A stretch of 40,873 nucleotides of DNA, from the NCBI GenBank assembly GCA_017480565.1, contig JAFVAL010000066.1:1-40873 (forward strand). The letters are read 5' to 3'. Positions 1 to 31,709 of the stretch are shown in pieces. The DNA is from Lachnospiraceae bacterium (GTDB taxonomy: Bacteria > Bacillota > Clostridia > Lachnospirales > Lachnospiraceae). Each line of letters opens with the position of its first letter. The first letter of the stretch is position 1. Under the pieces are notes generated by a model, which saw only the letters and a program-made list of their open reading frames with translations, searched no databases and was not told the origin of the DNA. The position numbers and the translations under genes are program-made.

Positions 1-1814
1 GCAAATATGCGTGGGATGAAAATTACCGCGACACCGCAAGAGTCAACACCCACAAGACCGGTACCGCGCCTTGTAAGACCGCCTGTCCGGCGCATGTATC
101 GATTCAGGGTTACTTAAAGATGGCCAAAGAAGGCCGCTACGAGGAAGCACTCGCTTTGATCAAGCGTGAGAATCCGTTCCCTGCGATCTGCGGACGTGTC
201 TGCAACAAGCGTTGTGAAGATGCCTGTACCAGAGGCACCATCGATGCGCCTGTCGCAATCGACGATGTCAAGAAGTTCTTGGCAGAGCGTGACCTGCACG
301 CCGAGACCAGATACATCCCGAAGAAGCTCATCAACAAGGTAAATGGTACCTGGGATCAGAAGATCGCAATCATCGGTGCAGGCCCTGCCGGACTTTCCGC
401 TGCCTACTATCTCGCAACCCTCGGCTACAAGCCGACTGTATTTGAGAAAAATGCGAAGCCGGGCGGCATGATGACCTATGGAATTCCTTTCTTCAAGCTG
501 GAGAAAGACGTCATCGATGCATAAATCGACGTCATCCGTGAGCTTGGCGTAGAGATCAAGTGCGGCGTTGAGGTTGGCAAGGATGTCACAATCGCTGAGC
601 TCAAATAGCAGGGATATCAGGCATTTTACATTGCAATCGGCTGCCAGGGCGGCAGACTTCCGGGCGTTCCGGGCGACACCGCAGAAGGCACTGAGATCGC
701 AGTGAAGTTCCTTGAGAAAGCCCTTGCAGACACCGCCAAAGACTTAAGTGGTGAAGTCGTTGTCATCGGCGGCGGCAATGTCGCGATCGACTGCGCAAGA
801 ACCGCTGGCAGAAAGGGCGCAGATCACGTCTCCATGTATTGCCTGGAGTCCCGTGAGACCATGCCTGCCTCTGTCCAGGAGATCGAGGAAGCCGAGGAAG
901 AGGATGTCAAGATCTGTGCTGGCTGGGGTCCGAAGGAGATTCTGACAAATGAATCCGGCAAGGTTTGCGGCGTCGTCTTAAAGCGTTGCCTCTCCACGAT
1001 CGATCCGGAAACCGGACGCTTCTCCCCGAAGTACGACGAGGATGACACCATCACCGTTCCGGCTGATAAAGTGGTCTTCGCCATCGGCCAGGCCATCGAG
1101 TGGGGCAAGCTCCTTGAAGGAACCGCAGTCACCTTCCATCACGGCAACTATCCGGTGGCAGATCCTTTCACCTACCAGACCGCAGATCCTTGCATCTTCG
1201 TCGGCGGTGATGTCTTTACCGGACCGAAGTTCGTCATCGATGCGATCGGTCAGGGCCATGAGGCAGCAGAATCTCTGCGCAGATTCGTCTCAGCCAACAG
1301 CGTTTCTCTGACCATCGCAAGAGACCGTCGTTACTTCAAGTCCTTAGACAAGGACAACATTGCAATCGACTCTTACGATACCGCACAGAGACAGGTGCCT
1401 CCGGTAGACGAGACCATCGATTACAAGCATGAGTTTAAGGACAACCGCCTGATCTTCACTGAGGAACAGGTTAAGGCAGAAACCTCCCGTTGCCTCGGCT
1501 GTGGCGCAAGCATCGTAGATCAGAACAAATGTATCGGCTGCGGTCTTTGCACCACCCGCTGCGAATTCGACGCGATCCATCTGCACCGTGATCATCCGGA
1601 AGCATCCGATATGAGACGCGCCGAAGACAAGGTCGGAGGCCTCCTCTCCTACGCGATTCCGAGAGCGTTCAACATCATCAAGAACAGCGGCTCGGAAGAA
1701 GCCAAGATGATGCGCCAGAAGCGCAAAGAGTATAATGCAGCAACGAAGGAATTCCACAAGACGCATCCTCACACCGGAAATGCAGTCGATATCAATGAAC
1801 TGATGAAGGATTGA
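1..1814 (+). pseudogene. Ferredoxin/FAD NAD(P)-dependent oxidoreductase (GltD/DPYD-N-like), 5' end outside window, two in-frame stops
   Basis: The frame is open from the left edge and reads as an electron-transfer flavoprotein of the glutamate synthase small-subunit/dihydropyrimidine dehydrogenase N-domain family. Visible in order: the Cys-rich 4Fe-4S segment (APCKTACPAH, then CGRVCNKRCEDAC), an FAD Rossmann motif GAGPAGLSAAYY, an NAD(P) motif GGGNVAIDCAR, the FAD-closing segment GGDVFTGPKFVIDAIGQG and a C-terminal ferredoxin domain (CLGCGASIVDQNKCIGCGLC). The whole resembles the intact gene at 5904-8726, including the residues before the first motif, so the N-terminal part should lie left of the window. 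Two stops break the frame: TAA at 522-524, where the paralogue has Glu, and TAG at 606-608, in a stretch otherwise conserved. There is no frameshift; both sides stay in frame for hundreds of codons. It is either a very young pseudogene or a sequence error. The in vivo electron acceptor is unknown. Confidence 0.85.
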
Positions 1815-1928: not shown

Positions 1929-1957
1929 TTGACGTCGAACACATGTTCTGATATAAT
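1929..1957 (+). promoter_or_regulatory. SigA-type promoter of the 27-codon gene (putative type I toxin mRNA)
   Basis: The -35 box is TTGACG (1929-1934), followed by a 17-nt spacer and a perfect TATAAT (1952-1957). Transcription should start near 1964, at the beginning of a small stem-loop GCTC-GCAA-GAGC (1964-1975) with a GNRA-type tetraloop, a feature that would protect the 5' end. This is one of the strongest promoters in the window, although the gene it serves encodes only 27 residues. Confidence 0.8.
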
Positions 1958-1976
1958 TAAAATGCTCGCAAGAGCA

Positions 1977-2007
1977 GGGAGCACTGCTAAAGCGCAGGCG
2001 GTTGGCC
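1977..2007 (+). repeat. Left (5') arm of a long-range RNA stem enclosing the small ORF
   Basis: Pairs with 2150-2174. Bases 1977-1987 pair with 2174-2164 and bases 1994-2007 pair with 2163-2150, giving 25 pairs. Only a 6-nt bulge (1988-1993) sits on the left side. The three departures from Watson-Crick (1978/2173, 1997/2160, 2004/2153) are all G on the left facing U on the right. They remain paired in RNA, which points to selection for RNA structure rather than a DNA palindrome. Confidence 0.8.
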
Positions 2008-2030
2008 ATCACATCCGAAAGGAGGTGATC
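2008..2030 (+). promoter_or_regulatory. Shine-Dalgarno-sequestering hairpin with full-length anti-16S match
   Basis: GAAAGGAGGTGATC (2017-2030) is complementary over 14 nt to the conserved 3' end of bacterial 16S rRNA, far more than an ordinary ribosome binding site. The same bases form a hairpin: ATCAC (2008-2012) with GTGAT (2025-2029), one A/G mismatch, then TCC (2014-2016) with GGA (2021-2023), capped by a GAAA tetraloop. The helix starts directly after base 2007, the last paired base of the long-range stem, so the two could stack. The fold would bury the ribosome binding site, as in known type I toxin mRNAs. Confidence 0.75.
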
Positions 2031-2032
2031 GC

Positions 2033-2116
2033 ATGCCTATTACTTTAACATTTCATGTGTTTGGGTTAACCATCACAGTTACAGTAAAAAGCAACAGCCG
2101 CCACTCGGGGAAGTGA
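2033..2116 (+). CDS. 27-residue peptide, putative type I toxin-like small protein
   Basis: ATG at 2033 lies 2 nt after the exceptionally long Shine-Dalgarno match; TGA at 2114-2116. The peptide begins MPITLTFHVFGLTITVTV and ends in a basic, polar tail with K, R, H and K. The core alternates Thr with Ile/Val/Leu/Phe, so it reads more like an amphipathic beta-strand than the alpha-helical membrane toxins of the TxpA, BsrG or Fst types. I do not recognise the family. The toxin call rests on context: strong promoter, folded leader with hidden ribosome binding site, 5'-3' pairing of the mRNA, and a convergent antisense RNA from a perfect promoter covering the last codons. Alternatives are a small regulatory RNA with an incidental peptide, or a signalling or antimicrobial peptide. 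Confidence 0.65.
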   Translation: MPITLTFHVFGLTITVTVKSNSRHSGK

Positions 2117-2124
2117 CGGTTGTT
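2086..2124 (-). terminator. Intrinsic terminator of the antisense RNA, overlapping the 3' end of the small ORF
   Basis: AACAGCCG (2093-2100) pairs with CGGTTGTT (2117-2124), and CACT (2102-2105) with AGTG (2112-2115), around a 6-nt loop. Read on the minus strand the hairpin is followed by CTTTTT (2091-2086), a proper U-tract. On the plus strand it is followed only by TAATAAAA, so it stops the antisense RNA better than the sense mRNA. The last codons and stop of the 27-codon gene form the stem and loop. Confidence 0.75.
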
Positions 2125-2149
2125 TAATAAAAAACCATTATTAACTCGA

Positions 2150-2174
2150 GGCTAACCGCTTGCGCAGTGCTCTC
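2150..2174 (+). repeat. Right (3') arm of the long-range RNA stem
   Basis: Partner of 1977-2007, with 25 of 25 bases paired including three G-U pairs. It lies downstream of the stop codon and at the start of the antisense transcript, so it serves both RNAs. The sense mRNA must extend at least to 2174 for the pairing to exist; I see no clear sense-strand terminator, only a T6 run at 2197-2202. Confidence 0.75.
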
Positions 2175-2184
2175 TACAAATATT

Positions 2185-2213
2185 ATTATACAAGCCTTTT
2201 TTGGTTTTGTCAA
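2185..2213 (-). promoter_or_regulatory. Perfect-consensus SigA promoter of the antisense RNA
   Basis: On the minus strand, TTGACA (2213-2208), a 17-nt spacer (2207-2191) and TATAAT (2190-2185): a 12-of-12 match with ideal spacing. The next protein gene on that strand within reach is the small ORF in antisense, and an intrinsic terminator follows within about 100 nt. The promoter can therefore only make a short RNA. Confidence 0.85.
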
Positions 2214-5903: not shown

Positions 5904-8726
5904 TTACTTCTTGACTTTGTTCACCAGAATTTTGCCGCCACGCTTAATCACGTATGGCGCAATCGCTTTGAACTTCTCTTCTGCCTGATACATCGTGCTG
6001 GCTTCCGGGAAGTCTCTGGTCAGATGAATCGCGTCAAATTCACAGCGTGTGGTACACAGGCCGCAGCCGACGCAGCGGTTCGTATCCACGACGGATGCAC
6101 CGCAGCCTAAGCATCTCTTTGCCTCAGTCTTGACCTGCTCTTCTGTGAGAGTCAGTCTCAGATCGCGGAAGGTCTCGGTCGCAACACCGGCCTTCTTGCC
6201 AGGGATCTGTCTCTTCGCGTTATCAAAACATTCCGGATCAAGTAAAATGTTTTCCTTATCGAGCTCTTTGAACTTGCGCAGGTCTCTTGCCAGGGTCAAG
6301 GAGTTGCCCGGATGGACGAAACGGTTGATCGAAACCATGCCCTCACGTCCTGCTGCAATCGCATCGATCGCAAACTTCGGTCCGGAATAAACGTCGCCGC
6401 CGACAAAGATATCAGGCTCTGCGGTCTGATAGGTGATCGGATCTGCCTTTGCGGTACCGTTGCGGTTTAACTCCACCTTGCTTCCGGCAAGCAGATTGCC
6501 CCACTCGATAGACTGACCGATGGAGAGAAGCACGTTCTTACAAGGGATCGTGATGGTATCTTCCTCGTCATACTGCGGGTTGAAACGATGGTCTGCATCA
6601 AAGACAGAGGTACATCTCTTAAATACCACGCCGCAGACCTTACCGTCCTCTACAAGGACTTCTTTCGGACCCCAGCCGTTCATGACAGAGATGTTCTCTT
6701 CCTTCGCCTCTTCGACCTCATCCGGCGCAGCAGGCATCTCTTTTTCACTCTCCAAGCAAAGCATCGTGACCTTGCCATCCGTCACACGAACCGCGGTTCT
6801 TGCCACGTCCACTGCGACGTTGCCGCCGCCGACTACGACGACATCCCCCTGCAGTCTCAGGGAGTTGTCGAGATTGACCTTGCGCAGGAATTCCACGCCG
6901 GTCTGTACATTTGCAGCATCTTCCCCAGGAACACCGGTCTTTCTGCCGCCCTGGGCACCGATTGCCACATAAAATGCCTTAAATCCTTCCGCACGCAGTT
7001 CATCCAGCGTGATATCCTTGCCGACTTCCACGCCGCACTTGATCTCCACGCCCATCTGACGCATGACTTCAATCTCAGCTTCCACAATCTCCTTCTCCAG
7101 ACGGAAGGTTGGAATGCCGTTGATTAACATGCCGCCCGGCACCTTTTCTTTCTCAAAAACAGTAACCGGATAGCCTTCTTTTCTCAGATAATAGGCTGCG
7201 GAAAGGCCTGCAGGGCCTGCACCGATCACGGCAACCTTCTCGGTAAAGAAGCCGCCGTCACCCTTTTCGCAGATCGGGACATAACGCTTCTCTGCATTCA
7301 GTTCCTGTGCCGCGATAAACTTTTTGATCTCGTCGATCGCCAGCGGCTGATCGATTGTGCCTCTCGTGCAGGCATCCTCGCAGCGACGGTTACAGACCGC
7401 ACCGCAGACTGCAGGGAACGGATTGTCCTGCTTGATCAGCTTGAGCGCATCCAGATATCTCCCCTCGGAGGCCATCTTGATGTAGCCCTGGATTGCCAGA
7501 TGCGCCGGACATGCGGTCTTACAAGGCGCAGTACCAGTCTCGTAGACATTGATCTTCGCATCGTCGCGGTAGTTGTAGTTCCACTTCGTTGCCGGCCAGT
7601 TCGCCGCGTTCGGAAGCTCGGTCTTTGGATAAATGATCGGGCCGTCCTTCGTGCAGAGCTTCTGACCAAGCTTTGCAGCGCCGACAGGACATACCTCCAC
7701 ACACTTGCCGCAAGCCACACATTTTTCTTTCTCTACATGCGCGCGGTAAGCGGACGCGGACATGTTCGGTGTGTTATAAAGCTGCGAGGTGCGCAGTGCG
7801 TTACAGACACCAGGCGCACAGTTACAGATCGCAACGATCTTGCCGGGGCCGTCGATATTCGTGATCTGGTGCACATAGCCGTGGCGCTCAGCTCTCTCTA
7901 AGATCTCGAGCGCTTCCTGCTTGGTGATGTAACGGCCAATGCCGCGATCGTCCATGTACTCCGCCAGATCGCCCATCGCCATACAGTACTCACCGAGGAT
8001 CTCACCGGAGCCCTCGCCGCGCATCGTCTGCTGCTTACGGCAGGTGCAAAGACCGACACCGTACTTACCGTCATACTGATCTAACCATTTGGAAATGTGC
8101 TCGACCGAGACAGATTCATTGCAGGCTTCGATCGCCTTTTCCACCGGAATGACATGCATACCGATGCCCGCGCCTCCCGGAGGCACCATCTGCGTGATCC
8201 CACCAAGCGGCAGCTGCGTCATCAGATTAAAGAAGGTGGCAAGCTCCGGAAACTCATCCGTCAGTCTGTCATTCATCATCATGAACTCTGCAGAACCAGG
8301 CACGAAAATCGGAAGATTATAGAACTTCTCACCGATCATCGCAGGCTCTCTGGTCATCTCAATCAGACCGATCCAGCACAGACGGTCAATCATCTTCTGC
8401 GTCTCTTCGAGCGACATGTTGTTCATCTTTGCAAGCTGCGCCGGGCTGTAAGGAACTCTCGTCTTCTTAAAACTTAAGAGGAACTTGATCTCTTCTTTGG
8501 TACAGATCATATCCAGCGCCCAATACTCAGGGTCACGGTTATTGATCTTTCCCGTAAACTTTTTGACATACCGGTCGGTGATCAGGGTTGCAAGCTTTAA
8601 CACCAGCTTCTCTTTCTCCTTATCCGGTGCGACATAATTCGGATCCTGCCAATAATCTCTCTCATTGATCATCGGATCTCCGACTTTCCAGTTGTAATAC
8701 GGATTGCCGGGCTTGTTTTCTGCCAT
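5904..8726 (-). CDS. Ferredoxin/FAD NAD(P)-dependent oxidoreductase, GltD/DPYD-N-like fusion
   Basis: 940 residues. An N-terminal helical region of about 310 residues with extra Cys clusters (GLCTCRKQQ, ICNCAPGVCN) leads into a ferredoxin motif CVACGKCVEVCP. Then come the Fe-S-binding segment APCKTACPAH...CGAVCNRRCEDAC typical of GltD and dihydropyrimidine dehydrogenase, FAD motif GAGPAGLSAAYYL, NAD(P) motif GGGNVAVDVAR, FAD-binding GGDVYSGPKFAIDAIAAG, and a last ferredoxin domain with CLGCG...CVGCGLCTTRC. It should move electrons between NAD(P)H and a ferredoxin-type or unknown partner in the cytosol. It is a full-length paralogue of the broken gene at 1-1814. A good promoter precedes it and it is probably monocistronic. 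Confidence 0.85.
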   Translation of the reverse strand: MAENKPGNPYYNWKVGDPMINERDYWQDPNYVAPDKEKEKLVLKLATLITDRYVKKFTGKINNRDPEYWALDMICTKEEIKFLLSFKKTRVPYSPAQLAKMNNMSLEETQKMIDRLCWIGLIEMTREPAMIGEKFYNLPIFVPGSAEFMMMNDRLTDEFPELATFFNLMTQLPLGGITQMVPPGGAGIGMHVIPVEKAIEACNESVSVEHISKWLDQYDGKYGVGLCTCRKQQTMRGEGSGEILGEYCMAMGDLAEYMDDRGIGRYITKQEALEILERAERHGYVHQITNIDGPGKIVAICNCAPGVCNALRTSQLYNTPNMSASAYRAHVEKEKCVACGKCVEVCPVGAAKLGQKLCTKDGPIIYPKTELPNAANWPATKWNYNYRDDAKINVYETGTAPCKTACPAHLAIQGYIKMASEGRYLDALKLIKQDNPFPAVCGAVCNRRCEDACTRGTIDQPLAIDEIKKFIAAQELNAEKRYVPICEKGDGGFFTEKVAVIGAGPAGLSAAYYLRKEGYPVTVFEKEKVPGGMLINGIPTFRLEKEIVEAEIEVMRQMGVEIKCGVEVGKDITLDELRAEGFKAFYVAIGAQGGRKTGVPGEDAANVQTGVEFLRKVNLDNSLRLQGDVVVVGGGNVAVDVARTAVRVTDGKVTMLCLESEKEMPAAPDEVEEAKEENISVMNGWGPKEVLVEDGKVCGVVFKRCTSVFDADHRFNPQYDEEDTITIPCKNVLLSIGQSIEWGNLLAGSKVELNRNGTAKADPITYQTAEPDIFVGGDVYSGPKFAIDAIAAGREGMVSINRFVHPGNSLTLARDLRKFKELDKENILLDPECFDNAKRQIPGKKAGVATETFRDLRLTLTEEQVKTEAKRCLGCGASVVDTNRCVGCGLCTTRCEFDAIHLTRDFPEASTMYQAEEKFKAIAPYVIKRGGKILVNKVKK

Positions 8727-31507: not shown

Positions 31508-31709
31508 TTTGAATGCAACCCCGAGGTGCCGATTCCTGATTTTTGACGCCTAGCAAAAAAGCTAGGTGGGTGACCTCACATGTACCGCTGCCTTCCACTG
31601 AATCTAAGGAGGCCTGACATTGAATACATAAATATTGGAATCCCTTTTATGTGATGTAGGTTCAAAAACTCAGGAGTTATCGAACATCCCAGGAAACATT
31701 CATTTTCTA
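31508..31709 (-). ncRNA. ssrS: 6S RNA (SsrS)
   Basis: About 200 nt from the predicted start near 31709. It begins with GAATGTTTCCTGGGATGTTCG, read on the minus strand. It contains the Clostridia-type conserved segments GTGAGGTCACCCACCTAG, a hairpin CCTAGC-TTTTTT-GCTAGG, and GGCACCTCGGGGTTGCATTC at the 3' end. The terminal GAATG (31701-31697) pairs with CATTC (31515-31511) to close a long irregular duplex with internal bulges. 6S RNA mimics an open promoter and holds sigma-A RNA polymerase in stationary phase. Recognition is from remembered sequence features, not a covariance search. Confidence 0.82.

Follow-up and report, generated by a model that had tools for sequence, protein, structure and literature searches.

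What is encoded by the short island at positions 1929-2213 of contig JAFVAL010000066.1 from a Lachnospiraceae bacterium (assembly GCA_017480565.1), of which we analysed a stretch of 40,873 nucleotides (nt), here called the window? A first-pass annotation had proposed a candidate new type I toxin-antitoxin (TA) locus with a 27-residue peptide. Judging from the sequence, we consider it likely, with a probability of about 0.74, that the island is a type I TA locus consisting of a short mRNA and an antisense RNA. The proposal gains support from the conservation of the locus as a unit, from constraint at the protein level, from the patterns in which copies occur and from an antisense RNA related to that of Hol_Tox loci. 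Two features in particular speak for type I, namely a small open reading frame (ORF) under protein-level constraint and, at the DNA level, an antisense gene that overlaps the mRNA.

The two strong convergent promoters of the first-pass annotation were found in the island, on the strands given there. The sense (toxin) promoter TTGACG-N17-TATAAT at 1929-1957 (+) agrees with the consensus at 11 of 12 positions and the antisense promoter TTGACA-N17-TATAAT at 2213-2185 (-) at all 12. The first 6 kb of the window contain 7 such sites, among which these two score highest; since shuffled sequence gives 6.4 sites with at least 9/12 matches, these two scores are exceptional and the number of sites is not. 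The predicted 27-codon gene with a long ribosome binding site is likewise present, as an ORF of 27 amino acids (aa) at 2033-2116 (+), the probable toxin MPITLTFHVFGLTITVTVKSNSRHSGK, behind the Shine-Dalgarno (SD) sequence AAAGGAGGTGAT. On the opposite strand, two RNA models described below recognise an antisense RNA of about 91-98 nt at 2081-2178 (-), the probable antitoxin. Its intrinsic terminator at 2119-2098 (-), identified by its stem and by wobble pairs that form on the antisense strand only, lies within the 3' end of the ORF, as had been noticed before.

In order to follow these elements in relatives, we applied a regular expression to 128 loci, which gave 118 distinct ORFs; 110 remained after removal of two at contig edges and of near-duplicates. 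A set of 104 was obtained by dropping two unrelated ORFs (L040:2676, L052:3673) as well as four copies with an altered frame or without a leader (L035:3848, L099:3315, L036:3249, L015:1504), the latter omission raising the figures. The first-pass annotation had named the conservation of promoters and antisense around relatives of the peptide as one way to check its proposal, and such conservation was found. The antisense promoter reaches at least 9/12 in 102 of the 104 loci, at least 11/12 in 95 and is perfect in 65. A sense promoter of at least 9/12 is seen in 73 loci and of at least 10/12 in 63. Random placements in the same loci gave 3.3% for the sense promoter at 9 or more matches, 0.7% at 10 or more and 0.12% for the antisense promoter at 11 or more (n = 1683). 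The antisense terminator is present in 101/104 loci, as compared to 38 of 890 random places in the same loci. Moreover, at least 12 pairs between the 5' and 3' ends are predicted in 98/104 loci, and of the 101 loci in which an SD was recognised, 77 have at least 60% of it paired. The elements of the locus exceed chance, since the same elements recur around relatives that were found by their peptide, and the peptide-antisense pair is conserved as a unit.

The strand on which the terminator hairpin is maintained can be read from its wobble pairs. Pairing that is possible on the antisense strand only (C.A in the sense, G.U in the antisense RNA) was found in 103/104 loci and pairing on the sense strand only in 9/104. 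Much of the antisense-only wobble is probably one inherited position; the asymmetry shows that the hairpin is kept on the antisense strand. The peptide itself is under constraint. The ratio of non-synonymous to synonymous changes (pN/pS), computed over codons 2-18 or 2-16, was 0.32 in 65 sequences of 27 aa and 0.17 in 20 sequences of 25 aa, with pN smaller than pS in 2069/2080 and 190/190 pairs of the two length classes, respectively. The out-of-frame ratios were at least 1.25.

A feature absent from the first-pass annotation is the pairing of the leader at 1976-2007 (+) with the arm in the 3' untranslated region (UTR) at 2150-2175 (+), to which the antisense RNA is complementary with its 5' part. 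Both arms were identified by inverted repeats (I2 and I3 for the leader), by folding and by covariation. The sense RNA from 1964 to 2178 folds end-to-end with -92.2 kcal/mol, as compared to -55.7 on average for its shuffles (z -8.45); for the antisense RNA by itself, the advantage over shuffles is modest (z -2.2). Complementarity of leader and 3' arm is higher within than between loci in 101/110 cases (Wilcoxon p 7e-18). For covariation, 32 aligned sequences were chosen from the 104. Over 20 long-range pairs, 97.1% of the cells are standard pairs, 15/20 pairs have changed on both sides and 79 cells are double changes, and none of 500 shuffles reaches any of these measures. Double changes affect 9/10 outer and 6/10 inner pairs. 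Pairing falls to 35-53% when the partner is slid by 1-3 columns, and RNAalifold, unprompted, gives the same 5'-3' helices. The 5' part of the antisense RNA is similar in sequence to the leader arm, and therefore leader and antisense RNA would compete for the 3' arm. At the predicted mRNA start, which was placed by promoter spacing, the fold contains a 5'-terminal hairpin GCTC-GCAA-GAGC at 1964-1975 (+); short hairpins resembling it were seen by eye, uncounted, at the same place in a number of relatives.

The two inverted arms of 16-19 nt on either side of the gene could also be taken for the terminal repeats of a miniature inverted-repeat transposable element, with the ORF and the promoters as passengers. 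This we regard as extremely unlikely: the arms covary within each locus, which is not the behaviour of ends that a single transposase has to recognise, the distance of the antisense promoter, located beyond the arms, is conserved, and the ORF is constrained at the protein level.

The long covarying 5'-3' pairing raises a further question, namely whether the mRNA is a switch in which this pairing hides the SD until 3' trimming exposes it. Pairing of the mRNA ends is a likeness to hok/Sok and aapA/IsoA; for hok and aapA, it is described together with the release of the SD by 3' trimming (PMC6733600). Here, in contrast, the SD lies in a local hairpin with a GAAA loop at 2008-2029 (+), which is predicted to lock it whatever the 3' end does. 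The predicted accessibility of the SD averages 0.27 in the full-length, the 3'-truncated and the antisense-bound mRNA alike (96 loci). Since it is equal in all three states, no translational switch is predicted, and a mechanism of the hok/AapA type appears unlikely.

The view of the first-pass annotation that the peptide is unlike the helical toxins and outside any family was borne out in the libraries searched. No family exceeded its cut-off in Pfam or NCBIfam, and no PHROGs family was reported at E ≤ 10. In Pfam, the window peptide produced no Hol_Tox (PF16935) row at E ≤ 10; for 16 relatives searched at E ≤ 1, three families were listed, and Hol_Tox is not among them. The only Pfam row at E ≤ 10 was YrzI (PF09501), with E 0.019 over residues 6-19, and 3 of the 16 relatives match this family at E ≤ 1. 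That the peptide belongs to YrzI as a diverged member is nevertheless very unlikely, given 15.5 bits against a cut-off of 23 and 14 of 45 profile positions covered. In the search of its own genome the match has 12.7 bits, and the same search matches 7/14 control genomes, in one of them over the cut-off.

Among 56 distinct peptides of 27 residues, positions 3, 5, 7 and 9 are hydrophobic, a break follows at 10-11 (mostly F-G), and positions 12, 14, 16 and 18 are hydrophobic again. The intervening residues are mainly T, T and H at 4, 6 and 8, and T, T and R/T at 13, 15 and 17. The beta-strand moment exceeds the helical moment in both halves of all 86 distinct peptides, as compared to 49% and 44% with shuffled residues, an excess to which the search pattern contributes. 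With a mean net charge of +4.5, the pattern suggests an amphipathic cationic beta-hairpin as the core. The C-terminal RHS(A/G)K tail (RHSGK in the window) is best read as the translated terminator hairpin of the antitoxin, because the window-type frame runs into that hairpin. The toxin and antitoxin genes would therefore share those bases.

For the RNA half we used two models, the E-values of which are rough: R1, built from 48 window-type antisense RNAs, and R2, built from 32 antisense RNAs of the helical class only, which is introduced below. R1 gives 83.3 bits at the window, whose locus is among its own training sequences. At E ≤ 0.01, it found 90 places in 59 of 299 genomes of the same family. 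Of the 64 places that scored below 60 bits, 55 were examined, and none of these belongs to the R1 training set. By a fixed rule, a short ORF preceded by an SD stands at the right place in 39 of them; in 34 of these the stop codon reaches precisely 17 nt into the match, in one 18 nt. L172, among the 39, is a window-type copy with an altered frame, and most others encode helical peptides such as MYVTYSDLIQIGIFICALVGLCYTIFKGKRK. Four helical representatives were scanned against Pfam: that of L151 passes the Hol_Tox cut-off (25.5 vs 23.3), and the other three scored 21.5 (just below), 10.4 (far below) and no row. None of the four exceeded a cut-off in NCBIfam. The remaining 16 of the 55 places have no ORF by the rule; L146 and L154 show one by eye, and the matches L175, L180 and L190 look like chance terminators.

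The helical-class loci resemble the window type in several respects. Among 34 of them, 5'-3' complementarity is locus-specific in 30 (p 1e-6) and 31 fold with at least 14 pairs between the 5' and 3' ends. Their promoters score lower, with at least 10/12 in 18/34 for the antisense and 10/34 for the sense promoter. A leader motif outside R1, GCGGYT, occurs in 86/104 window-type and 30/33 helical-class leaders (about 3.5% in shuffles). R2 in turn scores 40.7 bits (E 3.6e-4) at 2081-2178 (-) of the window and finds window-type antisense RNAs from 32/35 sources at E ≤ 1 and 23/35 at E ≤ 0.01, missing L025, L027 and L083; each model hence recognises the antisense RNA of the other class. With toxin classes pooled, R2 matches 99/299 family genomes at E ≤ 1e-5. 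The likeness to Hol_Tox thus extends to the antisense plan, the leader motif, the 5'-3' pairing, the SD placement and the reciprocal matches of the RNA models. The Hol_Tox core, in contrast, is helical, richer in L, A and M and unrelated by the searches made, and its stop usually lies before the hairpin (+17), whereas that of the window type, as in the window and L029, lies within it (+36). On these comparisons of sequence and structure, the locus most likely combines a toxin core that is unnamed in the libraries searched with an RNA chassis common to Hol_Tox-like loci. Two points of the first-pass annotation have to be corrected here: the locus belongs to a large family, and it has its RNA half in common with a known toxin family.

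The genome of the window itself contains a third locus at C46:28721-28816 (-) (L211), with 44.1 bits in R2 (E 0.001) and no R1 report at E ≤ 1. It encodes a helical-looking peptide of 35 aa, MSIQDILSLIQLLLDVFVFGYVICKDINKRRNDRP, whose tail enters the hairpin. In Anaerotruncus sp. G3, a bridging ORF, MVTYVELFQFCLVILGVVALVLDATKRNNRHPSQVLRLFP, lies on the same contig as a window-type locus, about 2.7 kb away; it joins a core that is Hol_Tox-like by eye to an NNRHP tail as in window-type peptides. A second antisense match in Evtepia gabavorous (L063:3617-3713 (-), 35.6 bits) accompanies another short hydrophobic ORF, MGNFLWKFFVCLVFAAYILSIKAC, possibly yet another kind of toxin on this chassis. A Pistol ribozyme (68.8 bits) was noticed at L153:304-373 (-), about 1.1 kb from a helical-class locus.

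If the locus is a type I TA system, it may work as follows. An mRNA from about 1964 to about 2178 would encode the cationic peptide, and the antisense RNA, running from near 2178 to near 2081-2088, would cover the entire 3' UTR together with the final codons. It would bind the 3' region of the mRNA, and the leading possibility, by analogy with Bacillus systems, is that RNase III would cut the duplex, leaving no peptide. When the antisense RNA falls or is lost, the mRNA would be translated and the peptide would arrest growth. The peptide would probably act at the membrane, as an amphipathic beta-hairpin and not as a transmembrane helix. The pairing of the mRNA ends probably stabilises the full-length molecule and shields the 3' arm until it is bound or trimmed.

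Convergent toxin mRNA and antisense RNA that overlap at their 3' ends are shared with txpA/RatA, bsrG/SR4, bsrE/SR5 and yonT/SR6 of Bacillus subtilis. SR4, SR5 and SR6 overlap the 3' ends of their toxin mRNAs and act via RNase III, which RatA needs too, and SR4 additionally closes the ribosome binding site (PMC5848175). Neither RatA nor BsrG matched at the Rfam gathering score in the window or in the 8 + 8 relatives scanned at a permissive threshold. BsrG gave sub-threshold rows in two of eight relatives scanned (18.5 and 17.3 bits vs 55; E 1.4 and 3). All candidates of the permissive scan at the locus were below their gathering scores and were rejected, the best being SpF66 with E 0.02 in one relative. 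The CD-RCd systems of Clostridioides difficile also combine a small peptide with a charged C-terminus and an antisense RNA, again in Clostridia. Compared by description only, they differ in that their toxins have 34-59 aa with a transmembrane domain; several of them lie on prophages (PMC6563280).

Several findings weigh against a type I TA locus with a beta-hairpin toxin. In 31/104 loci, there is no sense promoter of at least 9/12. The pN/pS values are biased low, because a search based on the peptide favours conserved core residues. The RNA-based search with R1 does not remove this bias: 15 of the 26 places that reach at least 60 bits in the 299 genomes are in the R1 training alignment. In 18 of the 26, the peptide core follows an SD; its tail is altered in one of them (G252:C39b). 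One place is frame-broken (G053:C5), three have the core without an SD (G081:C35, G081:C27, G267:C29) and four lack such a peptide (G022:C52, with the 3' part only, G083:C26, G083:C48b and G249:C14). Six of the 26 had gone unreported in the peptide search of the 299 genomes, and only one of these six (G225:C13) has an SD-preceded peptide; among the other five, one has a core without SD and four have no peptide. These peptide-less matches fit a loss of the toxin, in a small sample of six places. Furthermore, it is the residue pattern by itself that suggests the beta-hairpin, the SD is predicted to be equally accessible in all three states of the mRNA as described above, and the best 15-residue hydrophobicity averages 1.32, as compared to 2.66 in the helical class.

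Low hydrophobicity would suit a peptide that is controlled by the antisense RNA and is a regulatory, signalling or membrane-modulating small protein instead of a self-toxin. In the same direction, no phage gene was noticed in the ORF list of the window, whose genes were not run against the family libraries. Tandem copies, remnants, patchy presence and occurrence on viral contigs fit an addiction module better, as does a chassis common to Hol_Tox-like peptides, and we consider a non-toxic peptide quite unlikely.

Within the type I TA reading, a modular arrangement is conceivable, on which we are evenly divided. One antitoxin-leader chassis, matched in 99/299 sampled species of the family, would have carried at least two unrelated toxins, the Hol_Tox helix and the beta-hairpin; the tail of the toxin would lie in the terminator, and a covarying stretch of about 10 nt at the ends would serve as a locus-specific recognition code. 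If this is true, a toxin tail written in the terminator of its antitoxin forces the RNA antidote and the peptide to co-evolve. As a rule, type I toxins are detected and classified by their peptide sequence. Since the RNA half is shared and the toxin core differs, we suggest searching for type I systems by their antitoxin RNA, and toxin exchange on a fixed RNA scaffold becomes testable. A toxin of the beta type would be unusual, though with precedent, as a review of type I toxins marks beta-sheet beside helix in a table legend (PMC8309996). Among the titles and abstract openings listed in our literature survey, which covered few subscription papers, neither the peptide nor the shared chassis is described.

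The genome of the window contains a second copy of the locus (G000:C69:13993-14073), with a peptide that is 93% identical and with both promoters (sense 10/12, antisense 12/12). Upstream of this copy, L003:2775-2866 (-) matches both RNA models weakly (20.9 and 22.1 bits) and is perhaps an ordinary terminator or a remnant. In the 299 genomes of the same family, the peptide was matched at E ≤ 0.1 at 27 places in 18 genomes, of which 13 remain once five spurious single-place matches are removed. L017, L018 and L020 were rejected on their reading context, as were L016 and L019, which are long ORFs that we take to be FtsB/DivIC-like.

With A1, a profile of 16 peptides, 10/392 genomes of an order sample were matched at E ≤ 0.01, four of them by weak hits alone (L123-L126, E 0.0016-0.009). 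With this profile, genome contigs yielded 121 relatives, from which we retained 79 loci, and relatives were also found on nine viral contigs. Carriers include Lachnospiraceae, Oscillospiraceae, Ruminococcaceae, Evtepia, Oscillibacter, Flavonifractor, Anaerotruncus and Blautia, many of them metagenome-assembled genomes; named strains with loci are Evtepia gabavorous KLE1738, Oscillibacter valericigenes An860, Flavonifractor sp. An306 and Anaerotruncus sp. G3. At E ≤ 1e-4, a wider peptide profile, A4, matched 2/341 genomes of a class sample, namely that of the window and one with a remnant, and 5/338 of a phylum sample, again that of the window plus four more, and because these matches are few, the peptide family appears patchy. 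The phylum-sample loci L214, L215 and L216 share the antisense plan (35.2, 44.7 and 37.0 bits in R1), and so does the faecal phage record L213 (86.6 bits). Searched against plasmids and phages, the window peptide gave one weak match in the former and two unannotated faecal records in the latter; a helical-class peptide matched nothing in the two sets at E ≤ 0.01.

Copies are found alone, in tandem, or as remnants that are antisense-only or broken in the peptide. In Lachnospiraceae bacterium UBA3287, an array at L029:3602-5482 contains five antisense matches, four with a peptide ORF. Antisense-like copies that lack an intact peptide stand directly behind a complete locus at L007:1645-1745 (-) and L108:5190-5362 (-) and are possible orphan antitoxins. 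In the phylum sample, one genome of another family (G1172) has six peptide matches, several on distinct contigs, a local expansion. Regarding viral contigs, a phage minor tail protein and a Clp-type protease lie near the locus in L108. Among the proteins checked, L114 has one with LysM and L116 one with a portal match slightly under the cut-off.

The neighbouring ORFs in the window look, from the ORF list, like ordinary chromosomal genes. The reading frame at 1-1814 (+), presumably a glutamate synthase small subunit (GltD-like), is broken by TAA at 522-524 and TAG at 606-608, which may reflect decay or an assembly error. A longer unbroken ORF of 940 aa at 5904-8726 (-) is similar to it by eye. 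The only Rfam match at gathering score in the window is 6S RNA, at 31514-31698 (-), with 55 bits as compared to a gathering score of 46.4.
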